Shown here piece after piece: positions 1-28,981 of a stretch of 28,981 nucleotides of DNA. The stretch is taken from positions 1-28,981 of the IMG/VR virus record IMGVR_UViG_3300028595_000051. One strand, 5' to 3'. The notes below the pieces were generated by a model. It did not search any database and was not told where the DNA came from. It worked only from the letters and a program-made list of their open reading frames with translations. The translations under genes were made by a program, and so were the position numbers. The stretch is from a virus. Position 1 is the stretch's first letter. Every line of letters begins with the position of its first letter.

Positions 1-127
1 AAACAAGGTTTGCCATATTACATAGCATCTGATAGGCGAAACAAGGTTTGCCATATTACATAGCATCTGATAGGCGAAACAAGGTTTGCCATATTACATA
101 GCATCTGATAGGCGAAACAAGGTTTGC
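1..127. repeat. 38-bp tandem repeat array, about 3.3 copies, cut by the left edge
   Basis: Identical 38-bp units begin at 1, 39 and 77, followed by a 13-bp partial unit at 115-127. Each unit starts AAACAAGGTTTGCC and ends GATAGGCG. Across each junction the string GGCGAAACAAGGTTTGCC can fold into a hairpin (GGC/GCC plus AAAC/GTTT, one bulged G, loop AAG), seen at 35-52 and 73-90. There is no spacer between units. The array lies beyond the terminator of the early operon and may continue to the left of the window. Its role is unknown: it could be a replication or packaging-end repeat, a REP-like element, or an assembly-end artefact. Confidence 0.9.
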
Positions 128-8599: not shown

Positions 8600-8629
8600 A
8601 TCGTAGAATGATCATTCTAAAGTTGTCAA
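8600..8629 (-). promoter_or_regulatory. Sigma70-type promoter P2 with palindromic operator
   Basis: On the minus strand TTGACA (8629-8624) and TACGAT (8605-8600) are 18 nt apart. The spacer contains the perfect 16-bp palindrome TAGAATGATCATTCTA (8604-8619). A palindrome lying between the boxes is a typical repressor operator position, so P2 may be repressed by a dimeric phage or host regulator. No repressor gene was recognised in the window. Confidence 0.65.
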
Positions 8630-8684
8630 GGACTGCCCCTAAAAAAATATTTCCTTTAAAATCAAGGGTTTACAAAATAATCTC

Positions 8685-8740
8685 TTGACAAGTAATGTTG
8701 GCATGCTTATTGTAATATTAAGGGTGTTTAACAAGCATGC
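8685..8740 (+). promoter_or_regulatory. Plus-strand promoter candidate with flanking inverted repeat
   Basis: TTGACA (8685-8690) and TATTGT (8708-8713) are 17 nt apart (perfect -35, 4/6 -10). The inverted repeat GCATGCTT (8701-8708) / AAGCATGC (8733-8740) spans the -10 and the expected start. It would transcribe rightward, against all genes, so any product would be an antisense or untranslated RNA; I see no credible gene after it. It could also be a protein-binding site only. Confidence 0.4.
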
Positions 8741-8959
8741 TATTTGCTTTTGCTTCTTGCGATTGCATATTGAAGTCTGCACTTATTAATAAATAATATT
8801 TAAAAAATAAAAAATAAATCAATAAGATTGCAGTATGCATACTTCAGTATGAAGATTGCTATTTAAGCTTGCATTTTACGGTTACATCTTGCAGTTGTAT
8901 TCTATGATTGCGTCCTTAGGCTTTCCTTTGTTGCTGCTATCTATATCCATACTACATTA
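8741..8959. other. Non-coding AT-rich region with repeated GATTGC hexamers; candidate origin
   Basis: No credible gene. GATTGC occurs exactly at 8761, 8826, 8854 and 8906, with further TTGC-rich sequence around 8743-8760. An A/T tract (about 8772-8824) is almost free of G and C. Dyads include AGTATGCATACT (8832-8843) and CATAC-TTCA-GTATG just after it. Clustered short repeats beside an AT-rich tract are the general pattern of a replication origin, and the replication operon begins just downstream. This is a suggestion, not a demonstration. Confidence 0.35.
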
Positions 8960-9481
8960 CTACTCACTTTTAATGATAACAGGGTCAACTACTTGTTTGT
9001 CAACAACAGTAGGCTCTACTACTTGTCTATTAACAATAGTTGGTGTTGCAGTACCAGAATTATCGGTATCACCAATATTGATAGGATTATTACTGTTTGA
9101 GCTTATACTTCCACTATCTCCGTTGTTAATTATAGTTCCACCAACATTCCCTATCACTTCCTTAGCAGCCCATCCTCCACTTAATACAGAAGCCGGTGTT
9201 GATTGCAACACTACTTTCAATCCATCAACAACAGGGTTACTTGCTTCCTTTATTGCTGGTTTTTGGATATTTGTGTTGTTTACAATAAAAATAGTTCCAT
9301 CTGGCGCTCTCATTTCTGCTATTGGCTTATTAGCAGCCTACATATAAACCATATTGGTTTCTTTTCGGGCATTATAATATGCCTTATAGTAAGTAGCCTT
9401 AGATTCGTAGTAGCTACTTGTACAGCCTGATAGCAGCAGCACAAAGCATATTGTAATAGTAAAACAAATTTTATTCCACAT
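8960..9481 (-). CDS. Phage lipoprotein gene interrupted by an in-frame TAG
   Basis: The reading frame begins at the ATG at 9481: MWNKICFTITICFVLLLSGC, a lipoprotein signal with lipobox LSGC and acceptor Cys20, then 27 residues to a TAG at 9338-9340. The same frame continues without a break for another 125 codons: ANKPIAEMRAPDGT, a Ser/Asn/Gly-rich middle and a Val-rich end (VVDKQVVDPVIIK). As I recall, phage lipoproteins of this type have a lipobox, a Tyr/Ala-rich helix and a VVDPV-like tail in one polypeptide, so the two halves look like one ~172-aa protein. CAG to TAG would explain the break. The product may be a 47-aa lipoprotein, a readthrough protein, or nothing. The start overlaps the fibre-assembly gene by 11 nt. 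It ends TAG TAA. Confidence 0.65.
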
Positions 9482-10076: not shown

Positions 10077-11987
10077 TTAAAACATGTTTGTTGTCAATGG
10101 GTAGCATTTTCCTTTACCGCTGTCACTATTGTCTGCAAAGCACACAACAGCTTGAGTACTTGAAAATGTTGTTACTGATATGTAGGATGTATTTCCACTT
10201 TCAAACTCAACAGCAGTTCCTGGAATTATTGTAGTTCCACCATCTATATCCAGTAAACATACTTTTCCTTCACTACTATCATCACTGTCTGCAAAACAAA
10301 CAACAGCTTGAGTGCTTGAAAGTATTGTTACTGATATATTGATTGCAGCTCTACTTTCAAACTCAACAGCAGTTCCTGGAGTTATTGTAGTTCCACCATC
10401 TATATCCAGTAAACATGCTTTTCCTTTGTTGCTGTCACCCTGATCTGTAAAACAAACAACAGCTTGAGTGCTTGAAAGTTTTGTTACTGATATGCAGGTT
10501 GTAACTCCACTTTCAAAATCAACAGCAGTTCCTGGAGTTATTGTAATCCCGCCGTCTATATCCAGTAAACATGCTTTTCCTTTGTTGCTGTCACCTGTGT
10601 CTGAAAAACAAACAATAGCTTGAGTGTTTGAAAGTGTTGTTGCTGATACATAACCTGTAGCTCCACTTTCAAACTCAACAGCAGTTCCTGGAGTTATTGT
10701 AGTACCTCCATCTATATCCAGTAAACATGCTTTTCCTTTACTACTGTCACCCTGATCTGTAAAACAAACAACAGCTTGAGTGCTTGAAAGTATTGTTACT
10801 GAATTGTAGAGTGTAGCTCCACTTTCAAAGTCAACAGCAGTTCCTGGAGTTATTGTAGTACCTCCATCTATATCCAGTAAACATGCTTTTCCTTTGTTGC
10901 TGTCACCCTGATCTGTAAAACAAACAACAGCTTGAGTACTTGAAAGTGTTGCTACTGATATGTAGGTTGTAGCTCCACTTTCAAAATCAATAGCAGTTCC
11001 TGGAGTTATTGTAGTGCCATCTATATCCAGTAAACATGCTTTTCCTTTGTTGCTGTCACTACCATCCCTAAAACATACAATAGCTTGAGTGCTTGAAAGT
11101 GTTGCTACTGATATATAAGACGTACCTCCACTTTCAAAAAGAGTGGTTAAAAAGTAATCAACAGAATCAGTTTCATTTGAACTTAAAGTAAAAATCTGCC
11201 ATGTCCCGTCTGAAGTTGTTCTATCTAACAGTTGAACAAAACAGTAATCACCACTTGAGAATGAGTATAAGTATTTACTACTGTTGTCTTTAATATTTAT
11301 TTGATTCTCACCTGCATTTTTTATCAAAAAACAAAGCCCGGTCGCCATAGTAGTTGCGTCTGGTAGATAAATATAACATCCGTAAGCAGTTGTTGTGATT
11401 TCCTGTACAAAATTACTTGTTGATGATAATGTGATATCACTTGAAGTTGAGACAGTAGATGCACCGCCACTACCACCTTTTATTGAATTTTCAACAGTGA
11501 TTTTCCAATACGTACCATCATCTGTGTTTGGTTGTATTGTTTGGCTATGTGCTTGTTGTGCTGTATATGCCCTATAATCTGCATTTGGATCTAACACTAC
11601 ATCACCTGCACTCCAACTATCACCAGAAGACCAGACCACTGCATTGGCAGACAAAGCAGAAGCGTTTGCTGCTGATTCTGCAAGAAGAACTTGTTGAGCT
11701 GCAAGATCTTTTTGTTCTTCTGCCTTTGCACTCCAATGTTTTGCACTGTACTTCCCTGCCTCAACTTCACTATCCTCTGCTTTGTCTGCCCATTCTTCGG
11801 CTTTATCTCTTGCATCTTCAGCTTCACCGGCGATAGTATTTATTTGACCTGAAAGTGTATTTAACTCATCTGGCATATCCTCAATGTACCCAACAAAAGC
11901 ATCTGATCTGTCTGAAAATGTATCAGGATCTTGTCTACTTGGTGCTGTTGGCGCAGATGAGATTGTTTGTGTTATATCTGTTGCCAT
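10077..11987 (-). CDS. Tail fibre / receptor-binding protein with seven-repeat C-terminus
   Basis: 636 aa. Residues 1-110: N-terminal virion-attachment and coiled-coil region rich in Ala/Glu/Lys (EDARDKAEEWADKAEDSEVE). About 115-170: a carbohydrate-binding-like module with WSSGDSWSAGDVV and a later DGTYWKI. About 175-283: a Ser/Thr-rich beta region. 284-636: seven copies of a ~52-aa repeat, the last one shortened to 42 aa. Each contains FESG, SSTQAVVCF, KGKACLLDIDG and ITPGTA. Seven such units suggest a seven-bladed beta-propeller, a common sugar-binding shape. The ATG at 11987 has AAAGGAAA upstream. It lies between a distal tail gene and the fibre-assembly gene, which supports a role in host recognition. 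Confidence 0.8.
   Translation of the reverse strand: MATDITQTISSAPTAPSRQDPDTFSDRSDAFVGYIEDMPDELNTLSGQINTIAGEAEDARDKAEEWADKAEDSEVEAGKYSAKHWSAKAEEQKDLAAQQVLLAESAANASALSANAVVWSSGDSWSAGDVVLDPNADYRAYTAQQAHSQTIQPNTDDGTYWKITVENSIKGGSGGASTVSTSSDITLSSTSNFVQEITTTAYGCYIYLPDATTMATGLCFLIKNAGENQINIKDNSSKYLYSFSSGDYCFVQLLDRTTSDGTWQIFTLSSNETDSVDYFLTTLFESGGTSYISVATLSSTQAIVCFRDGSDSNKGKACLLDIDGTTITPGTAIDFESGATTYISVATLSSTQAVVCFTDQGDSNKGKACLLDIDGGTTITPGTAVDFESGATLYNSVTILSSTQAVVCFTDQGDSSKGKACLLDIDGGTTITPGTAVEFESGATGYVSATTLSNTQAIVCFSDTGDSNKGKACLLDIDGGITITPGTAVDFESGVTTCISVTKLSSTQAVVCFTDQGDSNKGKACLLDIDGGTTITPGTAVEFESRAAINISVTILSSTQAVVCFADSDDSSEGKVCLLDIDGGTTIIPGTAVEFESGNTSYISVTTFSSTQAVVCFADNSDSGKGKCYPLTTNMF
10080..11138 (-). 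repeat. Seven in-frame ~156-bp repeats inside the fibre gene
   Basis: Units begin (phenylalanine codon) at 11138, 10985, 10829, 10673, 10517, 10361 and 10205. The first is 153 bp, the next five are 156 bp, and the last runs 126 bp to the end of the coding sequence. DNA identity between units is high, with long identical blocks around TCTATATCCAGTAAACATGC on the plus strand. Copy number could change by recombination. Confidence 0.92.
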
Positions 11988-12011: not shown

Positions 12012-13022
12012 TTAAATTATCCCTTCGATTTCAAGAGAACATTCTGATAAATTAATATTACTTATTACAATATTGAAACTTTTAGGTATCCCGTATATCA
12101 ACAGGTTATCAAAAGCAGTGCCATTATCGTTTCCTTGCCACACTGTAGGCCTTGCTCTTAATTGTGTTATGACTGAATTTATAATATTCAGTTTGCTATT
12201 TTCTATAATAAGATCGCATTCCATTAACTTCCTGTAATTACCTTCTTGTATGTAATGGCTACCAAACGTTTCATCGAAAATTTTCTTACTATAATCTTCT
12301 ATTCCTGTGGATACGCCATATCTAAGATCTCCAATTACATACTCTCTTCCTGGTATTACCATACCTACACTACAATCAAGGTCAGCATATTTTTCAAATT
12401 CTATCTCAAGAATCATATTATTGTATAATCCGCCAATCGTTAGAGGATTCGCAAGGTCTCTTGTATATGAGAAATCCTTAAAAAAATACTCGTACCAATC
12501 ATTCAGTGGTTGTGTAAGATCTATAATTGCATCGTCAATAATCTTATTGCTTTCTGCTACACTGCCCCAACTTGTGGTATTCCACCCGTTTATTGTAATA
12601 TTTTTTGCTTGTACATTTAAAAAAGCTATTGAAGTAATAGCTGAACATTTTATTCTTATTATTATATTTGATGAAGATGTCGTTACAGTATTGCTATATT
12701 GATCAAACATCTTGTACATATCTATAGCACCAAGTGTACTCCAATACAACGGAGATGTCTCAGGATTTTGCCCTCTATCATCAGTGCCTCCAGTACCAGT
12801 ATTGTCGTGCATATCTTGTAGTGCTACATACTGAACATAGCACCCATTTGTTACACCACTTGTATCAAGATAATATACAGTGTCACCCTCGTCATATGCA
12901 GATGTAGCGCTCCATATACCAGAGGTAGGGTCGCTACCCACACTGCTATAAATAAGAGTAGCGAACCCATCTGTATCTGAAGCATCTTCACTAATAATAT
13001 ATTGTGGAAGTATTGTCTTCAT
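12012..13022 (-). CDS. Distal tail / virion-associated protein with carbohydrate-binding-like module
   Basis: 336 aa. Residues about 36-105 contain IWSATSAYDEGDTVYYLD, then YVQYVALQDMHDN, then NPETSPLYWSTLGAIDMYKMFD: the W..YxxGD..Y / NP..P..W..LG..D.Y.MFD pattern seen in phage virion proteins with a carbohydrate-binding module. The remainder is beta-rich with no motif I recognise. It is the first gene after the tape measure, where the distal tail protein or hub is expected in lambda-like phages, so it is probably a tail-tip component. Its ATG overlaps the tape measure... rather, its own stop (TAA) lies 25 nt before the fibre start, and its start at 13022 shares one base with the tape measure stop. 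Confidence 0.65.
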   Translation of the reverse strand: MKTILPQYIISEDASDTDGFATLIYSSVGSDPTSGIWSATSAYDEGDTVYYLDTSGVTNGCYVQYVALQDMHDNTGTGGTDDRGQNPETSPLYWSTLGAIDMYKMFDQYSNTVTTSSSNIIIRIKCSAITSIAFLNVQAKNITINGWNTTSWGSVAESNKIIDDAIIDLTQPLNDWYEYFFKDFSYTRDLANPLTIGGLYNNMILEIEFEKYADLDCSVGMVIPGREYVIGDLRYGVSTGIEDYSKKIFDETFGSHYIQEGNYRKLMECDLIIENSKLNIINSVITQLRARPTVWQGNDNGTAFDNLLIYGIPKSFNIVISNINLSECSLEIEGII

Positions 13023-16000
13023 TATGCTGTTGCCTCTGCTGGAAGTCCAATATTATCCCACTTATCAAATACTTTTTGCATCTTCACATTTGCTTTCAAT
13101 AATTGATAATTGTAGGTGTTTGTTGTTCTGACTTCCTCTCTTAATTGTTTAACTTCTTCTACAAGTTCATCATTTTCAATATAAACAGAATTATAATTGT
13201 TTACACCACCCATCATAGCCATTGTGTCTTCATGGTTATAATATCTTGCTGGCCCTGTTGCTTCAAGCTCCATACCTCTCTCACCAACAATTCTAAGACC
13301 ACCTGTATGGTAACCACCAGTTGCAAAGTAATCTGGATCTGCGAAGAAGTCCTCTATTGCAGGGCCAACACTGTTCGTAAAAGTATTAAAACTGAAAGCT
13401 TTTCTATAAATAGAGTGAACATCGTAATGGTTTTTATCAAAATAATCATTATCACCGTCATACCTGTTAGCTTCTCTTAACATATTAGACAACCAAGATG
13501 CCTTTAAACCGCTTGGTGGTTTAGAGTAAAGATCGTAGCTGCTATCTATGGCATTAAGATAGTCTTCAAGATACTCTACTGCTTTTACTCCACTATAATC
13601 ACTTTTTGTCCATATCTTGTCAAGATCCCACTGGGAATACCCTTCCTCAACTTCAGGAATATCAGGTTTTTCAATTACAATATCTGATACAATAGATGAC
13701 CCGCCAGATGACCCGCCAGATGACCCGCCAGATGACCCGCCTGTATCTGTTGGTATTACTGAAGTTGTCGCATCATCTACCTCATCAACTACATCTCTTT
13801 GAGGTCTTACATATGAATCATTAATACTTGATGATGATGTTTCTCCACCCACAACACTAATGTCAACACTTATTGGTGTTATAAGGTCTGTTGTTAAGGT
13901 TGCATCATAACCTTGAGTTCTTAACAGGTTAATTTCTTTCCAAACATAAAGAAGCACATCATTAATAGAGAATGTACTCGCATTAAAAGCTTTAGGTAGA
14001 TTTGCAATTTCTTCTCCCCATGCACTCTCGTTGAAGCTTAAAAAAGCCTTTGTGAACTCCCCAAATGTGGTTTCTGTAAGTAACTGTTCTCCAGCAAGTG
14101 TTGTTGTTACAGTAGTATCGATAAAAGAATAAAATGGCGATGTACTATCCCAATTGTTCATTAGTGCAACAGCTTGTTCCGTAGTAATACCTCTACCTGT
14201 AAACTCTGCCACAATCTCTTTTGTTATGTCATTAAGAACCATTCCATTCTTAACAAGATAATCTTCAAAGCTACTATACTGGCTATTAGCCTCAGATGGT
14301 ATTAAATCTATTGTACCTGTAACAGGATCAAAAGATACACCACTATCAATATAGAAAGGTTTAAGACTTTCCCACGGTATTTCTTCACTTTCAACAAGTC
14401 CTATTGTTGTCACTACCTGAGTAAGATCTAAGTTGCAATCATCTAAATACTCGTAAAGATCTCCGTACCCGGTTCTTTCTGCAAGAAGCTCTATTGTAGT
14501 TTCAAAAGATTCAGTATCAAATTTAACAAGAGGGTCATTTAGGTATTGCTCCATGTTCTTCCAAGGACTTTTTGTACTTGAAAGAAGTATTGTTACAATA
14601 GCTTCTGAACTCCATTGGTATTTTGAATTTCCTGTGACAGGATTAAAAAGCTCATCCATAAGATTTTTAAAACTATCATAATTTGTAGTATCAAAAGCAG
14701 TAGATGCAAAAGCTACAACCGCGTCTGTTTGATAACCACCACTTTGATCTCTAAGGAAATTAAGACCTTCCAATCTTTCTGCTATTGTGAGTCCTTGACC
14801 CCATCCTGTATAGTTAGCATAAAAAGCTACTGTTGCTTCTGTTGCCCAACCACCACTCCCTTCTACTACAAACCTAAGTGCGTTCATAGCCTCTTCAAAC
14901 GTATTGTTTGCCGATAAAAATCTTGTTACTTCACCAACATAATTCACAACAGCATCTAAAGACCATAAGCCATTTTCGCTTGCAAAATTAAGAGTATTCA
15001 TGGCTGCTACAAAATCACCTTCAAAAGCAGTCTCAAGGTTAGTCTTAAATTCTATAAAGGCTGCACTTGAAAAATCAATACCTGCTTGTGTAAGTGCTTC
15101 AATATCTTCTTCAGAGAATACTTGTAAAAGTTCAAGCCTATCAATAGCAGTGTTAAGTTCTGTAGCGTCAACATTTACAGATTGAAGAGTCTCTGGAGAG
15201 AATATGTTAGAGTAATCCTGCAAGAAATTAATAAGATCAGAATCACCGGATAATATATCTGCAAGATCATTTACTATTTGTTGTTGTTGAAGCGCAATAC
15301 GATTAAAATCTACTTCTTGCAATCCACTACTACCAGCCTCAGCACTACCAAGATTTTGTGAATATTTCTGTGCTTTACTAATACCACTGATAACCCTTCC
15401 AAAAACACCTTGATAGGCATAAAGGTCTGTTTCAGAAGCCTTTGTGAGTTCAAGAAGTGTATTTGCAACATCAGGCAGCCTGTTCATAGCTTCTGCTGCT
15501 ACTGTAGGGTCTGCACTTAATGCTGCTGAAAGAGTAGATTCATACTCTTGTCTTGCTACTTGTAGTTTTTGTTGTGGGTTTAGTGTACTAAATTCACCTT
15601 GAAGTAAACTTGTAAGATAATCATCAAGTGTGTCTGAAAGCTGCTCAAACTCATCTGTGATATTACTGATAGTAGTGCCAAGAGTTGTGAAATCTGCTGT
15701 TAGTTGCTCAACGCTTACGTTTGCAGCTTCAGCAGCGCTAACAATAGCGGTATAATCACTACCAAGAAACTCATTAAGAAAAGAAATTCTTGTGTTTATA
15801 TCAGAAAGATCTACGTTGTATCGCTCTTCAAGTTGTGCAAGGGAGTATTCTTCTTCTCTACCTGTTATTGATGCTTTAGCCGCACCTATACTGCCAAGTC
15901 TTTGTGCTTGCAAGTCCATTGTAAGAGCATTTACAATAAGCCCACCGGCCCTGAAAATCTTATCGGAGAATCCTTCAACACCTTCTATTTCAAAAACACC

Positions 16001-19000
16001 CTCATCGGCAAGATACTGAACGGCTTCTACTATGTTTTTTGTTTGCGTAACAAGAGCGTTGTATGCCTGTGTTTCTTCTGGCATTGCTATTGCTATAACA
16101 CTATTTAAAAGTGATGTGAAGTTGCTTACAACAGGATCAAGAGCCTCTTTTAGCGATGCGTTTATAAGGGCACTTTCATCTTCAACAACATCAACATACT
16201 CAAGATAGTTATTGATTGCACTATCAAGAGCTTGTTTTGTAGCCCTAAGTATATCTGTATCATTCCATTCTGAAATATAACCTGTAGCATCTGCAAGAGT
16301 TTGTGCATTATCCTCAAGTACATTGATAAAGTTCTTTATGATATTTATAAACTCAGATGTACTACTACCAAGCATATTGTTAATATTTGTAAAATCTTCG
16401 TCTGATAACTTAGAAAAAGTATCTACTACCTCTTCGATGGACATGTTCAAATCATCAACACCAAAAATATCAGCAAGTGACTTTAACCCTTGGTCTATAT
16501 TAAAAGCGTCTTCAATACCAAGAAGCTCGTTTTGTAGACTCTTTAAATTAATAAGCCTTTTACTTTCTTCATCGAGATTTGTAATAAGATCATTAATAAT
16601 ACTTGCAAAGTCTGTTAAATCTACACCAACAGTTTGTAGTACGTCATCCCACTCTTGAGGTGAAAATCCGATGAAGATGTCAAGAATCTCTTGTTTTGAT
16701 AAAGATTTTACACCAGAGCCAAAAATATTTTCAAGCTCCCTATATATTTTCCCCTCTTCAATTATGGAATCAGCAACTCCCATGGCTTTCAGTTGTAAAT
16801 CATTAAACTCACCGAATGATCTCCCAAGGTCATCTACTGATTCACTTAGTAAATCAACATACCCAAGTAAATCCTGAACAGAAATTCCAAGTTTTTCTGA
16901 TACAGTAAGAATTTCAATAAAATCAGCATTATTGGCCCAATCTACGGCGGCTTGCGCCCCTATATCATCAAGGCCGAATCTACCCATAACTTCTGATCTT
17001 GTTGATAGGGCGTCTGGTTCAGTATTTTTCCATTCTGAAAAAGCCGTGTATGATTGCTGACTTACTGTAAGATATTCTTGCTCTGCATCAAGCTGACTTT
17101 GAGTTTTTACAGACCCGTCGCTGTTTAGTAAATAACCAGGAACAGCAAGACTACCATTAGGGGTCATTCTTACGCCTTCAGGGTAGCCTTGTGCTTGAGA
17201 CCAATCGCCATAACTACCACCACCAGGTACTACCCCTGATGTAACAGTACCTGATAATTTACTAACTGCACCAATTAAACTGTCTATAGCATCAACAAAT
17301 TCTGGAGCGTCAAGGGCTGCTGTAATTACATTGATATCGTCTATAATACCATCAATTCCATTAGCAATGGCTTCTCCGGTTAGCACACCTCCAGCTACGA
17401 TTGATGACACCATATCACCTATAGCGGTGTTAATCGGTGCAATAAATGCACTATAAACAGATTCGGAAACACTTGCAACTACTGTTTTTGCTACACCTTC
17501 CTTTATCTGTTGTTTAAGAGAATTTACAAAACTGCTTGCTTGTTGTTGAGAATTGATAGCCCCCCAAATAGAATTTGAAAGTGTTTGAGCAGAAAGATTT
17601 GTTATTAAACTACCTACAATTTCATTTCTTTTTTCTTCAAGAAGTCTAAGCTCTTCTGTTGTTGCCCCAACATCTTTAAGCGTATTATAGAGATTATTAA
17701 AGGATTCTATCTGAAGTTCAATCTGAGATATACCATCAACAGATCCTATATCTTCAATAAGAGAGTCCATTACTTTAAATGTATTGACTACAGTTTCAAG
17801 ATTCTTATAAGCTACATCAGCAGACACACCTGTATTTGTCATTATATCATTAAGCCTAATGATAAAATCATCAGTAGATTGTACTGTAGTGCCAAATCTA
17901 AGAAAAGTATCTATAGAATTTTCACCAATAACACTTATCTTATCAAAGAATCCTTGGTTGAATATTTCAATATTTAGATCCTCACCACTGACACTTGAAA
18001 GCTGATTTATAAGATCCTCTTGAATATAAGAAAACATTTCATCAGACAGATTAGAAAGAGCAAGACCAAGATCTTCTTGTGCAAGATCAAGATCAAGTGT
18101 AAGGCTGAAATACTCAGCACTTGAAAGAGCATCCGATACAGACAGATTTAATCCTTCTTGTAAAGCTTTCAATTGAGCATCGATAAAAGGTACAAGAGCG
18201 TCATAGAATCGCTGTCTTGTCTCATCAGGGAGATCCTGCTGTCGTACAATATATTGAAAGCCTTCTTGAGAAGCACCTTGGCCTACGTCTTTGGTAATAT
18301 CAACACCTGTATTTGCTTGAAAAGCCGCCTCTGTATCTCTTTCAAGTCTCACCCAAGGCTCAGGATCATCACCAAACAAATCTACAAGTAAAGGTATTGC
18401 TATGGCTGCTACAGAAAGGTAAGGTACTACTTTAGCAATTGTACCGGCTATTCCTAAACCACCAAACAAACCTCCTTCTGCAACACCGCCTATACCGGCA
18501 AACTCACCGGCATAGCTTGCAGCACCGGCGGCTATTTCTGGCGATACCCCGGCATAGCTTGCTCCAAAAACACCTGTACCTATCTTGCCTATAGTACCTG
18601 ATGTAAGAGCTTTGTAAGCGCCTGTCTCAAGACCGCCTGAAACCGCATTGTAAAAAGTATTTAAATTTCCAAGAAGATTTGAAGATCCACTTGTTTTACT
18701 ACCACCGCCACCAAAAAGACCACCTATTATGCCACCAGATTCTTGATCGAAACTGCCAATAAGGTTTATTGTGATTTCCTTAGCAGCCATTTTAATAATA
18801 GCTTTTTCAAGTTCTAACAGCCAATTATCAAGCATATCTTTGAAGCCATCAGCACCACTCTTAAAGATAGATGTTAGAGAATTTTCTACAATACCTTCTA
18901 CTTTATCATATGTTTTCTTATAAGCTGCTTCTGCTTCTTCAAGCATCTTCTTTTTGTTTTTAAAGTATTCTTCATCTCTTTTTATAGCTTTATTATACCG

Positions 19001-21853
19001 ATCCTCATCTGTAGTATTCATTACAGACGCGTAATCTTCATATTCTTCCTTGTAAAACTCTTCCGCTGCTCTCTTTTTTTCTACAAGACTTATATAAAAT
19101 TCAATATCTGCTTCAAGCGCTTGTTGATCTATAAGCGGTTTTGATCTAAGCTCAAGCAGTTTTTTCTCTGCTTTATTACCAAGTTGAATAGTCTCAATAA
19201 GTTCTTTCTTCTGATTACTTCTGAAAAGATTTCTTGCTTCATCAATCTTTTTATATCTCTCTTCAAAACCTTTCAGTTGATCTTTCCACTTATTAATCTC
19301 TGATTCAGACACAAATTGTGGTTTTTTACTATTAACCTTTTGTACAAATTCATTGTACTCATCGGTAAGTTCAGAAAAATCAACGCCAACACCAGCCTTT
19401 ATGATTTGATCTTGATTATTATAATCTGTAAGCTCTTTTGATAGATCTTTTTGGGCATCAGTTAAAGATTTTAGCTTTTTAGCTGCTCTTTCAATCTCTT
19501 CATATTCTCTTTGTCGCTGTTTGATACGAGCATTAATATCTTTTATTTCGTCTTTACTTGTTTGAGATTGATCATCTTGTTCAAATTTTTCAGGTGCAAG
19601 TTGCTTATACTTATCTTTTGCTATTTCCATAGCTTTAATATAAGCATTTAACTTTTCCCTTTCAGTATCTGTTATGGTAAGCCCTTTGAGCTTAGCCTCG
19701 TTAAAAATCTCTTGTGCTTTCAAACCATTTCTAATATCTCTTTCAATTTCAGGCTTAACTTCAAGAAATTTAATATAATTTTGTGCATCATCTTGAACTT
19801 CTTTTAACTTGTTCTTAAGATCTCCTAAATTACCAAGCCTAAGTTTTTCAAGATCGAGAATAGTCTTTTCAATATCTTTATATCTGTTTAAAGCTTCAGT
19901 TATACCTGCTGTTGCTTTTTTATAATTCTCTTGAGCTTTATTTCTTTCCTCATCTGTAGTAAGCATTTCAAGACCCTTTTGTTGTAGGTCTTGTAAAGAT
20001 TTTAATTGGTCTTCAAGCGGTTTTATCTGCTCTCTTGCATATTTCAAATCGTCTTTTGAGATATCGATAAGCCTGTTTTTGTACTCAATCTGCTCTTTAA
20101 GCTGATCTGCCGTCATAGATGCGAAATCACGGGATGCAAACTGCTCTATCATTTGTTTTGTAGAGTCAATAGCGCCTTCGTTTGCTATTTTGAGTGCGTC
20201 GCCACCTTTAGCGGCATACATAAGCTCGTCTGCAAGCTTTTTAAGACCAGCGCCAAGAGCTATACCCGCAAGAATTGTAAGTACAGCAACATTTTTATGG
20301 AGTGTTGCATTGAAGATTGCTGTTGCGCCTTCTGCTGCATATATGGCAGTAGTAAGGTTTCGAAACATTGTTATAGCACCTGAGATGGCCTTACCTGCTA
20401 TAAAAACACCAACAACATAAGATGCTTGTTTACCAAACTCGACCAAATAATCAATATTATTTGAAAGCTCTTCTGCAAGATCAGGAAGTTTCTCTGCTAA
20501 TTTAATAATAGCGTCTGCAAGCTTTTCAGTAAATCCAGTAGCCTCATTAAATTTACCTATTGCTTCTGTTAGCTTATTATTCCAAACAGTTACAGCCTGG
20601 CTTACTGTAGGTGTAACATTTTCAAATTCCTCTTTCAGTTTCTCTGTTTGAGACAGCAAGGCTGTTAAAGCATCTTCAGATTTTACAAATCCTTCAAGTA
20701 CAAGTTTCCTCAATTGTGCTGTAGATACACCAAAACCCTCCGCCATTGCTCTTGCAATTCTTGGTGCACCTTCAAGAATACTGTTAAATTCCTCTGCTCT
20801 TACAACACCACTTCCAAATGCTTGGGATAGCTGAGTAAGAGCACCCCTTGCCTCTACAGCAGTGGTGTTTGTAACCCCAAGGGCATAACCAACAGTTTCA
20901 AGTGTTTGTGCTATCTCTTCTTGCCCAATTCCAAGCTCTTTACTACTGATATTCAATCTGTTGTAAAGTCTTGTTTGTGCTTCAAGATCTGTTCTTGTTG
21001 TGTTTGCAATTTCAGCTATCTTTGTTCTTACTGCTAAAAGCTCTCTTTCACTTTCAGTAGCGATACGAATTACGCTTGTAACCTTTGTCCAAGCATCTGC
21101 ATACTTTATAATTTCTTGAGCTACAAGTATTGCGCTTACACTGTAAAGAATATCTCTGAAACCTGTAAAATCTTTTTGGTATTTTTTAAAACTACTTCCA
21201 AGTCTATCTGCATTTTTAGCGGAACTGCCTAAATTATCTACAAGTTTGCTATTGGCTTTAACAAGAGCTTGTATTTGTTTTTCAATACTCTCAAGAGCTT
21301 TATTAGTAGAATTTGAATTTGTAGTAAGCTGTTTAAGATACTTATTTGTTTCCCCTACAGCACCATTTAGGTTTTTTAAATTTGCGTCTAAAGTCTTTGT
21401 ATTCTTCGCTACTTTTTTTATAGCGTTGTTTGTAGACATAGAAATATCTTGAAGGGTTTTTACACCGGCACCAAGTCTGTCATAAGCTTTTGCCATATCA
21501 CCAGCAGATTTCTTAGAAGATTGTGCAAGTATATTGAAATCTTTACTGATATTCTTTAGTTCTGTAGCAAGTAAATTCAACCCTTTAGCAGATTCTGTGC
21601 TTGTATTTTTAAGCACAGTAAGTGCTTTTTGAGTAGCTTTATTGCTATTTGTAAGTAGAGTATTACTTCTACTAATCTCATTAGCAAGTGTGCTTATGGC
21701 GCTACCATTCTTTTTAATGGTATCCTCAAGAACACCAAGTGAGTTTGCACTTGATGCTGTTGAATTGTCAATATTTTTAATACTTTTATATAAATCATCG
21801 AGTGATTTTATCGCTTGAGAAGTATCTATTTTTATTTGAGCATTTTCAGCCAT
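13022..21853 (-). CDS. Tape measure protein (giant, 2,943 aa)
   Basis: Sets tail length and is packed inside the tail tube. Residues 1-220 are helical, Ser/Asn/Lys-rich coiled coil. About 228-430 match the tape-measure N-terminal domain (LGIGQEEIAQTLETVGYALG, ALTQLSQAFGSGVVRAEEFN, EGAPRIARAMAEGFGV). Hydrophobic segments lie at about 470-535, and near 1125-1160 (KVVPYLSVAAIAIPLLVDLF). About 590-1050 are long charged coiled coil. A Gly-rich stretch follows near 1070-1110. About 2284-2590 hold degenerate 30-38-aa repeats. A GGSS linker precedes the C-terminus, which has the usual GGLRIVGERGMELEATGP motif. By the rule of about 0.15 nm per residue the tail would be near 440 nm, unusually long. The start overlaps the chaperone stop (TAATG). 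The frame is completely open. Confidence 0.96.
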   Translation of the reverse strand: MAENAQIKIDTSQAIKSLDDLYKSIKNIDNSTASSANSLGVLEDTIKKNGSAISTLANEISRSNTLLTNSNKATQKALTVLKNTSTESAKGLNLLATELKNISKDFNILAQSSKKSAGDMAKAYDRLGAGVKTLQDISMSTNNAIKKVAKNTKTLDANLKNLNGAVGETNKYLKQLTTNSNSTNKALESIEKQIQALVKANSKLVDNLGSSAKNADRLGSSFKKYQKDFTGFRDILYSVSAILVAQEIIKYADAWTKVTSVIRIATESERELLAVRTKIAEIANTTRTDLEAQTRLYNRLNISSKELGIGQEEIAQTLETVGYALGVTNTTAVEARGALTQLSQAFGSGVVRAEEFNSILEGAPRIARAMAEGFGVSTAQLRKLVLEGFVKSEDALTALLSQTEKLKEEFENVTPTVSQAVTVWNNKLTEAIGKFNEATGFTEKLADAIIKLAEKLPDLAEELSNNIDYLVEFGKQASYVVGVFIAGKAISGAITMFRNLTTAIYAAEGATAIFNATLHKNVAVLTILAGIALGAGLKKLADELMYAAKGGDALKIANEGAIDSTKQMIEQFASRDFASMTADQLKEQIEYKNRLIDISKDDLKYAREQIKPLEDQLKSLQDLQQKGLEMLTTDEERNKAQENYKKATAGITEALNRYKDIEKTILDLEKLRLGNLGDLKNKLKEVQDDAQNYIKFLEVKPEIERDIRNGLKAQEIFNEAKLKGLTITDTEREKLNAYIKAMEIAKDKYKQLAPEKFEQDDQSQTSKDEIKDINARIKQRQREYEEIERAAKKLKSLTDAQKDLSKELTDYNNQDQIIKAGVGVDFSELTDEYNEFVQKVNSKKPQFVSESEINKWKDQLKGFEERYKKIDEARNLFRSNQKKELIETIQLGNKAEKKLLELRSKPLIDQQALEADIEFYISLVEKKRAAEEFYKEEYEDYASVMNTTDEDRYNKAIKRDEEYFKNKKKMLEEAEAAYKKTYDKVEGIVENSLTSIFKSGADGFKDMLDNWLLELEKAIIKMAAKEITINLIGSFDQESGGIIGGLFGGGGSKTSGSSNLLGNLNTFYNAVSGGLETGAYKALTSGTIGKIGTGVFGASYAGVSPEIAAGAASYAGEFAGIGGVAEGGLFGGLGIAGTIAKVVPYLSVAAIAIPLLVDLFGDDPEPWVRLERDTEAAFQANTGVDITKDVGQGASQEGFQYIVRQQDLPDETRQRFYDALVPFIDAQLKALQEGLNLSVSDALSSAEYFSLTLDLDLAQEDLGLALSNLSDEMFSYIQEDLINQLSSVSGEDLNIEIFNQGFFDKISVIGENSIDTFLRFGTTVQSTDDFIIRLNDIMTNTGVSADVAYKNLETVVNTFKVMDSLIEDIGSVDGISQIELQIESFNNLYNTLKDVGATTEELRLLEEKRNEIVGSLITNLSAQTLSNSIWGAINSQQQASSFVNSLKQQIKEGVAKTVVASVSESVYSAFIAPINTAIGDMVSSIVAGGVLTGEAIANGIDGIIDDINVITAALDAPEFVDAIDSLIGAVSKLSGTVTSGVVPGGGSYGDWSQAQGYPEGVRMTPNGSLAVPGYLLNSDGSVKTQSQLDAEQEYLTVSQQSYTAFSEWKNTEPDALSTRSEVMGRFGLDDIGAQAAVDWANNADFIEILTVSEKLGISVQDLLGYVDLLSESVDDLGRSFGEFNDLQLKAMGVADSIIEEGKIYRELENIFGSGVKSLSKQEILDIFIGFSPQEWDDVLQTVGVDLTDFASIINDLITNLDEESKRLINLKSLQNELLGIEDAFNIDQGLKSLADIFGVDDLNMSIEEVVDTFSKLSDEDFTNINNMLGSSTSEFINIIKNFINVLEDNAQTLADATGYISEWNDTDILRATKQALDSAINNYLEYVDVVEDESALINASLKEALDPVVSNFTSLLNSVIAIAMPEETQAYNALVTQTKNIVEAVQYLADEGVFEIEGVEGFSDKIFRAGGLIVNALTMDLQAQRLGSIGAAKASITGREEEYSLAQLEERYNVDLSDINTRISFLNEFLGSDYTAIVSAAEAANVSVEQLTADFTTLGTTISNITDEFEQLSDTLDDYLTSLLQGEFSTLNPQQKLQVARQEYESTLSAALSADPTVAAEAMNRLPDVANTLLELTKASETDLYAYQGVFGRVISGISKAQKYSQNLGSAEAGSSGLQEVDFNRIALQQQQIVNDLADILSGDSDLINFLQDYSNIFSPETLQSVNVDATELNTAIDRLELLQVFSEEDIEALTQAGIDFSSAAFIEFKTNLETAFEGDFVAAMNTLNFASENGLWSLDAVVNYVGEVTRFLSANNTFEEAMNALRFVVEGSGGWATEATVAFYANYTGWGQGLTIAERLEGLNFLRDQSGGYQTDAVVAFASTAFDTTNYDSFKNLMDELFNPVTGNSKYQWSSEAIVTILLSSTKSPWKNMEQYLNDPLVKFDTESFETTIELLAERTGYGDLYEYLDDCNLDLTQVVTTIGLVESEEIPWESLKPFYIDSGVSFDPVTGTIDLIPSEANSQYSSFEDYLVKNGMVLNDITKEIVAEFTGRGITTEQAVALMNNWDSTSPFYSFIDTTVTTTLAGEQLLTETTFGEFTKAFLSFNESAWGEEIANLPKAFNASTFSINDVLLYVWKEINLLRTQGYDATLTTDLITPISVDISVVGGETSSSSINDSYVRPQRDVVDEVDDATTSVIPTDTGGSSGGSSGGSSGGSSIVSDIVIEKPDIPEVEEGYSQWDLDKIWTKSDYSGVKAVEYLEDYLNAIDSSYDLYSKPPSGLKASWLSNMLREANRYDGDNDYFDKNHYDVHSIYRKAFSFNTFTNSVGPAIEDFFADPDYFATGGYHTGGLRIVGERGMELEATGPARYYNHEDTMAMMGGVNNYNSVYIENDELVEEVKQLREEVRTTNTYNYQLLKANVKMQKVFDKWDNIGLPAEATA
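13694..13741 (-). repeat. Four perfect 12-bp tandem repeats encoding a GGSS linker
   Basis: The plus-strand unit AGATGACCCGCC occurs four times without change (13694, 13706, 13718, 13730). On the coding strand it gives Gly-Gly-Ser-Ser four times, at about residues 2705-2720 of the tape measure. It is in frame, so slippage would change linker length by 4 residues at a time. Confidence 0.95.
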
Positions 21854-22915: not shown

Positions 22916-23067
22916 GGGGTGTCTGAAAATCCACTTTTTTGCTCTCTTTTAGTGCTCGATTTTTGGGCCTACTGAAATTGGCGGAAAAGCCTGTTATTGA
23001 AGACTTATCAGCAATCAGAAAGAGGGCCAAAAACAGAGCAACACCAAATGGGACTTTTAGACATCCA
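22916..23067. mobile_element. MITE-like 152-bp insertion with terminal inverted repeats
   Basis: The left end GGGGTGTCTGAAAATCC and the complement of the right end (TGGATGTCTAAAAGTCC) match at 13 of 17 positions, and at about 18 of 26 when extended. Further inward, TTTTTGGGCC (22960-22969) faces GGGCCAAAAA (23024-23033). The element is flanked by near-identical 11-bp direct repeats, GTACAACATTA (22905-22915) and GTACAATATTA (23068-23078), as expected for a target duplication. There is no transposase gene, so it is a non-autonomous or decayed insertion element. The end sequence resembles insertion-sequence ends starting GGGGTGTCTGAAAA, but I cannot name the family. A 66-codon frame (22830-23030) crosses it and is not a credible gene. 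Confidence 0.6.
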
Positions 23068-28556: not shown

Positions 28557-28590
28557 AATAGTGGATGACCTAATAAGGCCACCCATTACT
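28557..28590 (-). terminator. Hairpin downstream of the capsid gene (partial terminator or processing site)
   Basis: On the minus strand AGTAATGGGTGGCC and GGTCATCCACTATT can pair over 14 positions with one mismatch and a few G-U pairs, around a TTATTA loop. The following TATTTTATA is only a weak U tract. It begins about 10 nt after the capsid stop. It could let capsid mRNA be more abundant than the downstream genes. Confidence 0.6.
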
Positions 28591-28598
28591 AATAGTTA

Positions 28599-28981
28599 TT
28601 ACGTATTGCTCAAAACTCTTACAAGCTTCGGTCTTGGGTTAAAGAAAAGTATATTTTTCTCTTGAAATACACTAACACCCTTGAACTCATCAGTTTTAGT
28701 CCATGAATAAGCCTCAAGAGCTTGTGTGTTCACATAAGATCTTGTCTGAGCAGGTGCGTATACAAGCTGCATGAAATCAGCACCACGAGGAATAAGATAC
28801 GCCTCAGTGTCACCGATCATTGGAGTACCTGTAATACCAGCACCGTAGTTAATATAACGGATACCGTCACGAGCACCAACAAAGTTAGCATACTGAAAAG
28901 AACCCGGAGTATTGAAAGATTACATAGGAATCTCTTCTGATGCAATATCAAGAGACTGGCGCATTTCTCTTGCAAGACCTG
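28599..28981 (-). CDS. Major capsid protein, 3' part, with an in-frame TAA
   Basis: Partial gene; the 5' end lies beyond the right edge. The frame GLAREMRQSLDIASEEIPM is followed by TAA (28920-28922) and then continues without a break for 106 codons: SFNTPGSFQYANFVGARDGI, then GDTEAYLIPRGADFMQLVYA, PAQTRSYVNTQALEAYSW, and NPRPKLVRVLSNT. The order AYLIPRG..FMQ.VYAPAQ...YVNT.ALEAYSW ... NPRPKLVRV matches the C-terminal part of lambda gpE-like major capsid proteins. The first ATG after the TAA (28820) lies well inside the domain. CAA to TAA would account for the stop. Read as written, the capsid would be truncated and non-functional unless the stop is suppressed or is an error. Confidence 0.75.

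Follow-up and report, generated by a model that had tools for sequence, protein, structure and literature searches.

An in-frame stop codon in a structural gene is a typical first sign of stop-codon recoding or suppression in phages, and gut phages in which TAG or TGA is recoded provide examples. Such a codon, TAA, lies at 28922..28920 on the minus strand (TTA on the plus strand) in the frame of a major capsid gene of the Phage_cap_E family, in an IMG/VR contig of 28,981 bases, IMGVR_UViG_3300028595_000051, analysed here at its full length as the window. The question is whether this stop belongs to the phage, as a suppressed codon, a lesion or a gene boundary, or to the assembly from which the contig came. 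Searching with the part of the capsid gene that follows the stop retrieved a second IMG/VR contig, IMGVR_UViG_3300028595_000018, of 51,325 bases, referred to below as the sister contig. The features that bear on the question are as follows.

28599..28979, minus strand: major capsid gene of the Phage_cap_E family, 3' part only, interrupted by the contig end and terminating in TAA TAA.
28920..28922, minus strand: TAA codon; at the corresponding codon (L004 3998-4000) the sister contig has TCA, for residue Ser253 of the capsid protein.
28562..28585, minus strand: terminator-like hairpin directly after the true stop of the capsid gene.
28795..28981, minus strand: overlap of 187 bases with the end of the sister contig, with a single mismatch at position 28921.
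1..127, plus strand: 38-bp tandem repeat in 3.3 copies at the far contig end; this repeat also stands, in opposite orientation, at the start of the sister contig (bases 1-96).

The sequence-only reading had described the frame as coding on both sides of the TAA, and in the letters as given this is real. The codons 5' of the TAA read GLAREMRQSLDIASEEIPM and those 3' of it SFNTPGSFQYANFVGARDGI; over a longer stretch, the capsid frame runs through GLAREMRQSLDIASEEIPM, the TAA and SFNTPGSFQYANFVGARDGIRYINYGAGITGTPMIGDTEAYLIPRGADFMQLVYAPAQTRSYVNTQALEAYSWTKTDEFKGVSVFQEKNILFFNPRPKLVRVLSNT to a closing TAATAA. The frame starts at 28979, 2 bases in from the end of the contig, and the 19 codons upstream of the TAA are coding, matching the sister contig's capsid gene at 100% identity. 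The middle base of the TAA codon is 28921, which leaves 60 bases to the end of the contig. The head-tail genes around the capsid gene are open and in order.

That the part after the stop carries the capsid C-terminus was likewise borne out. According to profile searches, this part (28919..28605) matched Pfam PF03864, Phage_cap_E, over profile positions 235-324 of 329, as well as the major head protein of PHROG 29. The missing first part of the gene is present on the sister contig with a Phage_cap_E match of its own. The scores were 25.6 bits for the C-terminal part in the window and 37.8 bits for the N-terminal part on the sister contig, against a curated cut-off of 22.9.

We then compared the stop with the sister contig. 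The match to the post-stop capsid part was 100% over 41 residues, up to the end of the sister contig, and the mismatch at 28921 falls on the second codon base, C in the sister contig (TCA, Ser) and A in the window (TAA). As expected of a contig-end artefact, an overlapping copy thus lacks the change, and 28921 is the sole mismatch in the 187 bases. An exact pattern in which the variable base was left open matched only the sister contig among the viral contigs, a search from which the window's own record was possibly excluded. Raw reads with a sense codon at the position had been proposed as a test, and TCA in an overlapping contig of the same phage comes close to it. The suggestion that the TAA had arisen from CAA (Gln) by a C-to-T change did not hold, as the position is a serine and the contigs differ at the second base of the codon (C or A).

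To place the residue in the family, the site was aligned with homologues, as the sequence-only reading had recommended. No stop occurs at the aligned site in any of 13 IMG/VR capsid loci, the sister contig counted. The column holds Ser in 10 loci, five of which look near-identical, so that these are not 10 independent cases, with Ile in two and Met in one; the Ser codons are TCA or TCT. The nearest relatives carry Ser. Homologues whose capsid ends at this column with a separate second gene following had been named as a possible counter-example, and neither a gene boundary nor a stop was found there (0/13 loci). In four annotated phages of the family, the capsid is one frame. Two named phages with this capsid type, Alteromonas phage vB_AmeM_PT11-V22 and Limnohabitans phage DC31, belong to Phage_cap_E (PF03864) by profile, as do both gene halves of the window phage, and share with it one continuous frame of about 335-365 aa; their identity to the window phage is only about 28%, over the first part of the protein. 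Closer capsid relatives (about 50-60% identity) are other uncultivated IMG/VR contigs. Judged from these sequences, the residue that belongs at the TAA position is serine.

The two contigs also resemble each other beyond the overlap. They are alike in G+C (35.8% and 34.5%), and the correlation between the two tetranucleotide profiles is 0.97. The unit of the tandem repeat at their far ends is AAACAAGGTTTGCCATATTACATAGCATCTGATAGGCG, and this repeat probably broke the assembly there. Away from the ends, the contigs have in common only a few dispersed repeats and no other long stretch. Because both contig ends meet, composition is similar and no other long stretch is shared, the simplest reading of the window and the sister contig would be as complementary parts of a single phage genome with a size of about 80 kb. 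Their fit at each end also suggests that the contigs came from a common sample.

Two of the dispersed repeats lie in non-coding or mostly non-coding DNA. A stretch of ~140 bases at 22927-23066 recurs with 96% identity in the sister contig (bases 23762-23901); it has inverted repeats at its termini, which fold into one long hairpin (z -2.7). In appearance it is a small repeat of either mobile (MITE-like) or regulatory type, and when the viral contigs were searched with an exact pattern of 27 bases taken from its left end, none matched. A mostly non-coding repeat of ~360 bases at 8604-8967 has two more copies in the sister contig, one in each orientation (88% and 81% identity). Among the genes of the window, an ORF of 636 aa at 10077-11987 carries a unit of 156 bp (52 aa), of the type SSTQAVVCFTDQGDSNKGKACLLDIDGGTTITPGTAVEFESG, repeated in tandem about 6.6 times; its product presumably belongs to a tail fibre or an adhesin-like protein. 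The tape measure gene at 13022-21853 is very long, encoding 2943 aa, and has a TMP_3 match. An Rfam search of the window and a plasmid search gave no match.

These data allow the explanations of the stop to be weighed. Suppression or recoding of the TAA, with read-through to the full capsid protein, has in its favour the open frame on both sides, and the window capsid gene resembles those of recoded phages in carrying an in-frame stop in a structural gene. Unlike in recoded phages, there is one such stop only, at a contig end, and TAA is a normal stop: in a mechanical list of non-overlapping ORFs it terminates 20/27 in the window and 55/84 in the sister contig (75/111 pooled), being the commonest stop in each. 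The capsid gene itself ends in TAATAA, and the coding fraction under table 11 is 0.95. ARAGORN found no tRNA gene, suppressor or other, in either contig. The interruption of many genes under the standard code that marks recoded phages was not seen: no other long frame of the window, including the 2943-aa tape measure gene, is split by an in-frame TAA; nor has TAA been lost from gene ends in either contig. With a sense codon in the sister copy and no stop in the homologues, suppression is contradicted and unnecessary, and we consider it extremely improbable. The same very low probability attaches to a decaying prophage or to a capsid gene naturally split into two separate products, for which nothing speaks beyond the TAA itself. 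Comparison with the 13 capsid loci and the four annotated phages, in which the protein is single and uninterrupted, ruled out a split gene. As for decay, what was seen of the phage is intact apart from the stop: the neighbouring head-tail genes are open and in order, TAA interrupts no other long frame of the window, and the contigs join each other at either end. When bacterial and archaeal genomes were searched with the capsid alignment, no relative turned up, and hence no sign of an integrated form.

A genuine nonsense allele is the more serious alternative. It would be present in a minority of the phage population, in a transient mutant or in a defective genome propagated by complementation, and the assembler would have routed it into the window contig where the graph forked at the variant. 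Both versions do occur in assembled contigs, and a graph fork usually takes more than one uncorrected read. Truncation at 28920-28922 would leave the capsid protein without its conserved C-terminal part. By contrast, the sole other copy available and the nearest relatives have Ser, and the stop-bearing version extends only 60 bases upstream of the site and differs from the sense version at none of the other 186 bases. We regard such an allele as unlikely, at somewhat under one chance in five. That genomes made defective by it persist through co-infection, in which intact siblings complement them, is more doubtful still.

Since the TAA lies near a contig end and the overlapping contig has Ser, it stems from an error in the assembly or the reads, or represents at most a rare or minor defective variant; it is neither a suppressed codon nor a mark of prophage decay. 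Among the three explanations that the sequence-only reading had left side by side, error or variant is thus the one that survives, with the TCA of the sister contig behind it. More specifically, we favour, with a probability of roughly 0.8, a contig-end artefact of short-read metagenome assembly, the phage itself having an intact capsid gene with Ser at this position. The overlap, the lone mismatch, the sense codon of the sister contig and the Ser of most relatives support this reading.

The contig ends suggest how the artefact may have arisen. The sister contig ends exactly 126 bases past the mismatch, and the repeat run at the far end of the window is exactly 127 bases. In published JGI pipelines the assembler is metaSPAdes, with 127 as the largest k (PMC7311315, PMC11584781). 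If the sample was assembled by such a route, the distances of 126 and 127 bases would be the expected marks of a k=127 graph that forks at a variant base or meets a repeat. A few reads with A for C at 28921, from sequencing or library error or from a minor population variant, would have opened a fork in the graph. The fork would then have split the phage genome into a 51-kb contig with the sense codon and a 29-kb contig whose last 60 bases continue beyond the variant base. The case resembles known contig-end artefacts of short-read de Bruijn assembly in its single-base difference beside a contig end and in its two overlapping contigs broken at a variant, with the other end at a tandem repeat; no difference from them was seen. 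Nothing direct emerged from the literature when it was searched for the sample number and for assemblies broken at variants. We infer that a graph fork was the origin and that the A is an error, not a rare real allele. Nevertheless, errors or variants backed by one or two reads are often removed by tip clipping and read correction, so the A may be real in a minority of molecules.

Whether the A is a read or library error or a rare real allele, the conclusion about the phage does not change: in the one other copy available, the capsid gene is intact. When a lone in-frame stop lies no further than about a read length from the end of a metagenome contig, caution is called for, and overlapping contigs should be compared before recoding or decay is inferred. 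Judging by the overlap, a single tailed phage of ~80 kb very probably accounts for both IMG/VR records, each being one half of it; the 2943-aa tape measure protein would predict an unusually long tail for a phage of this size.
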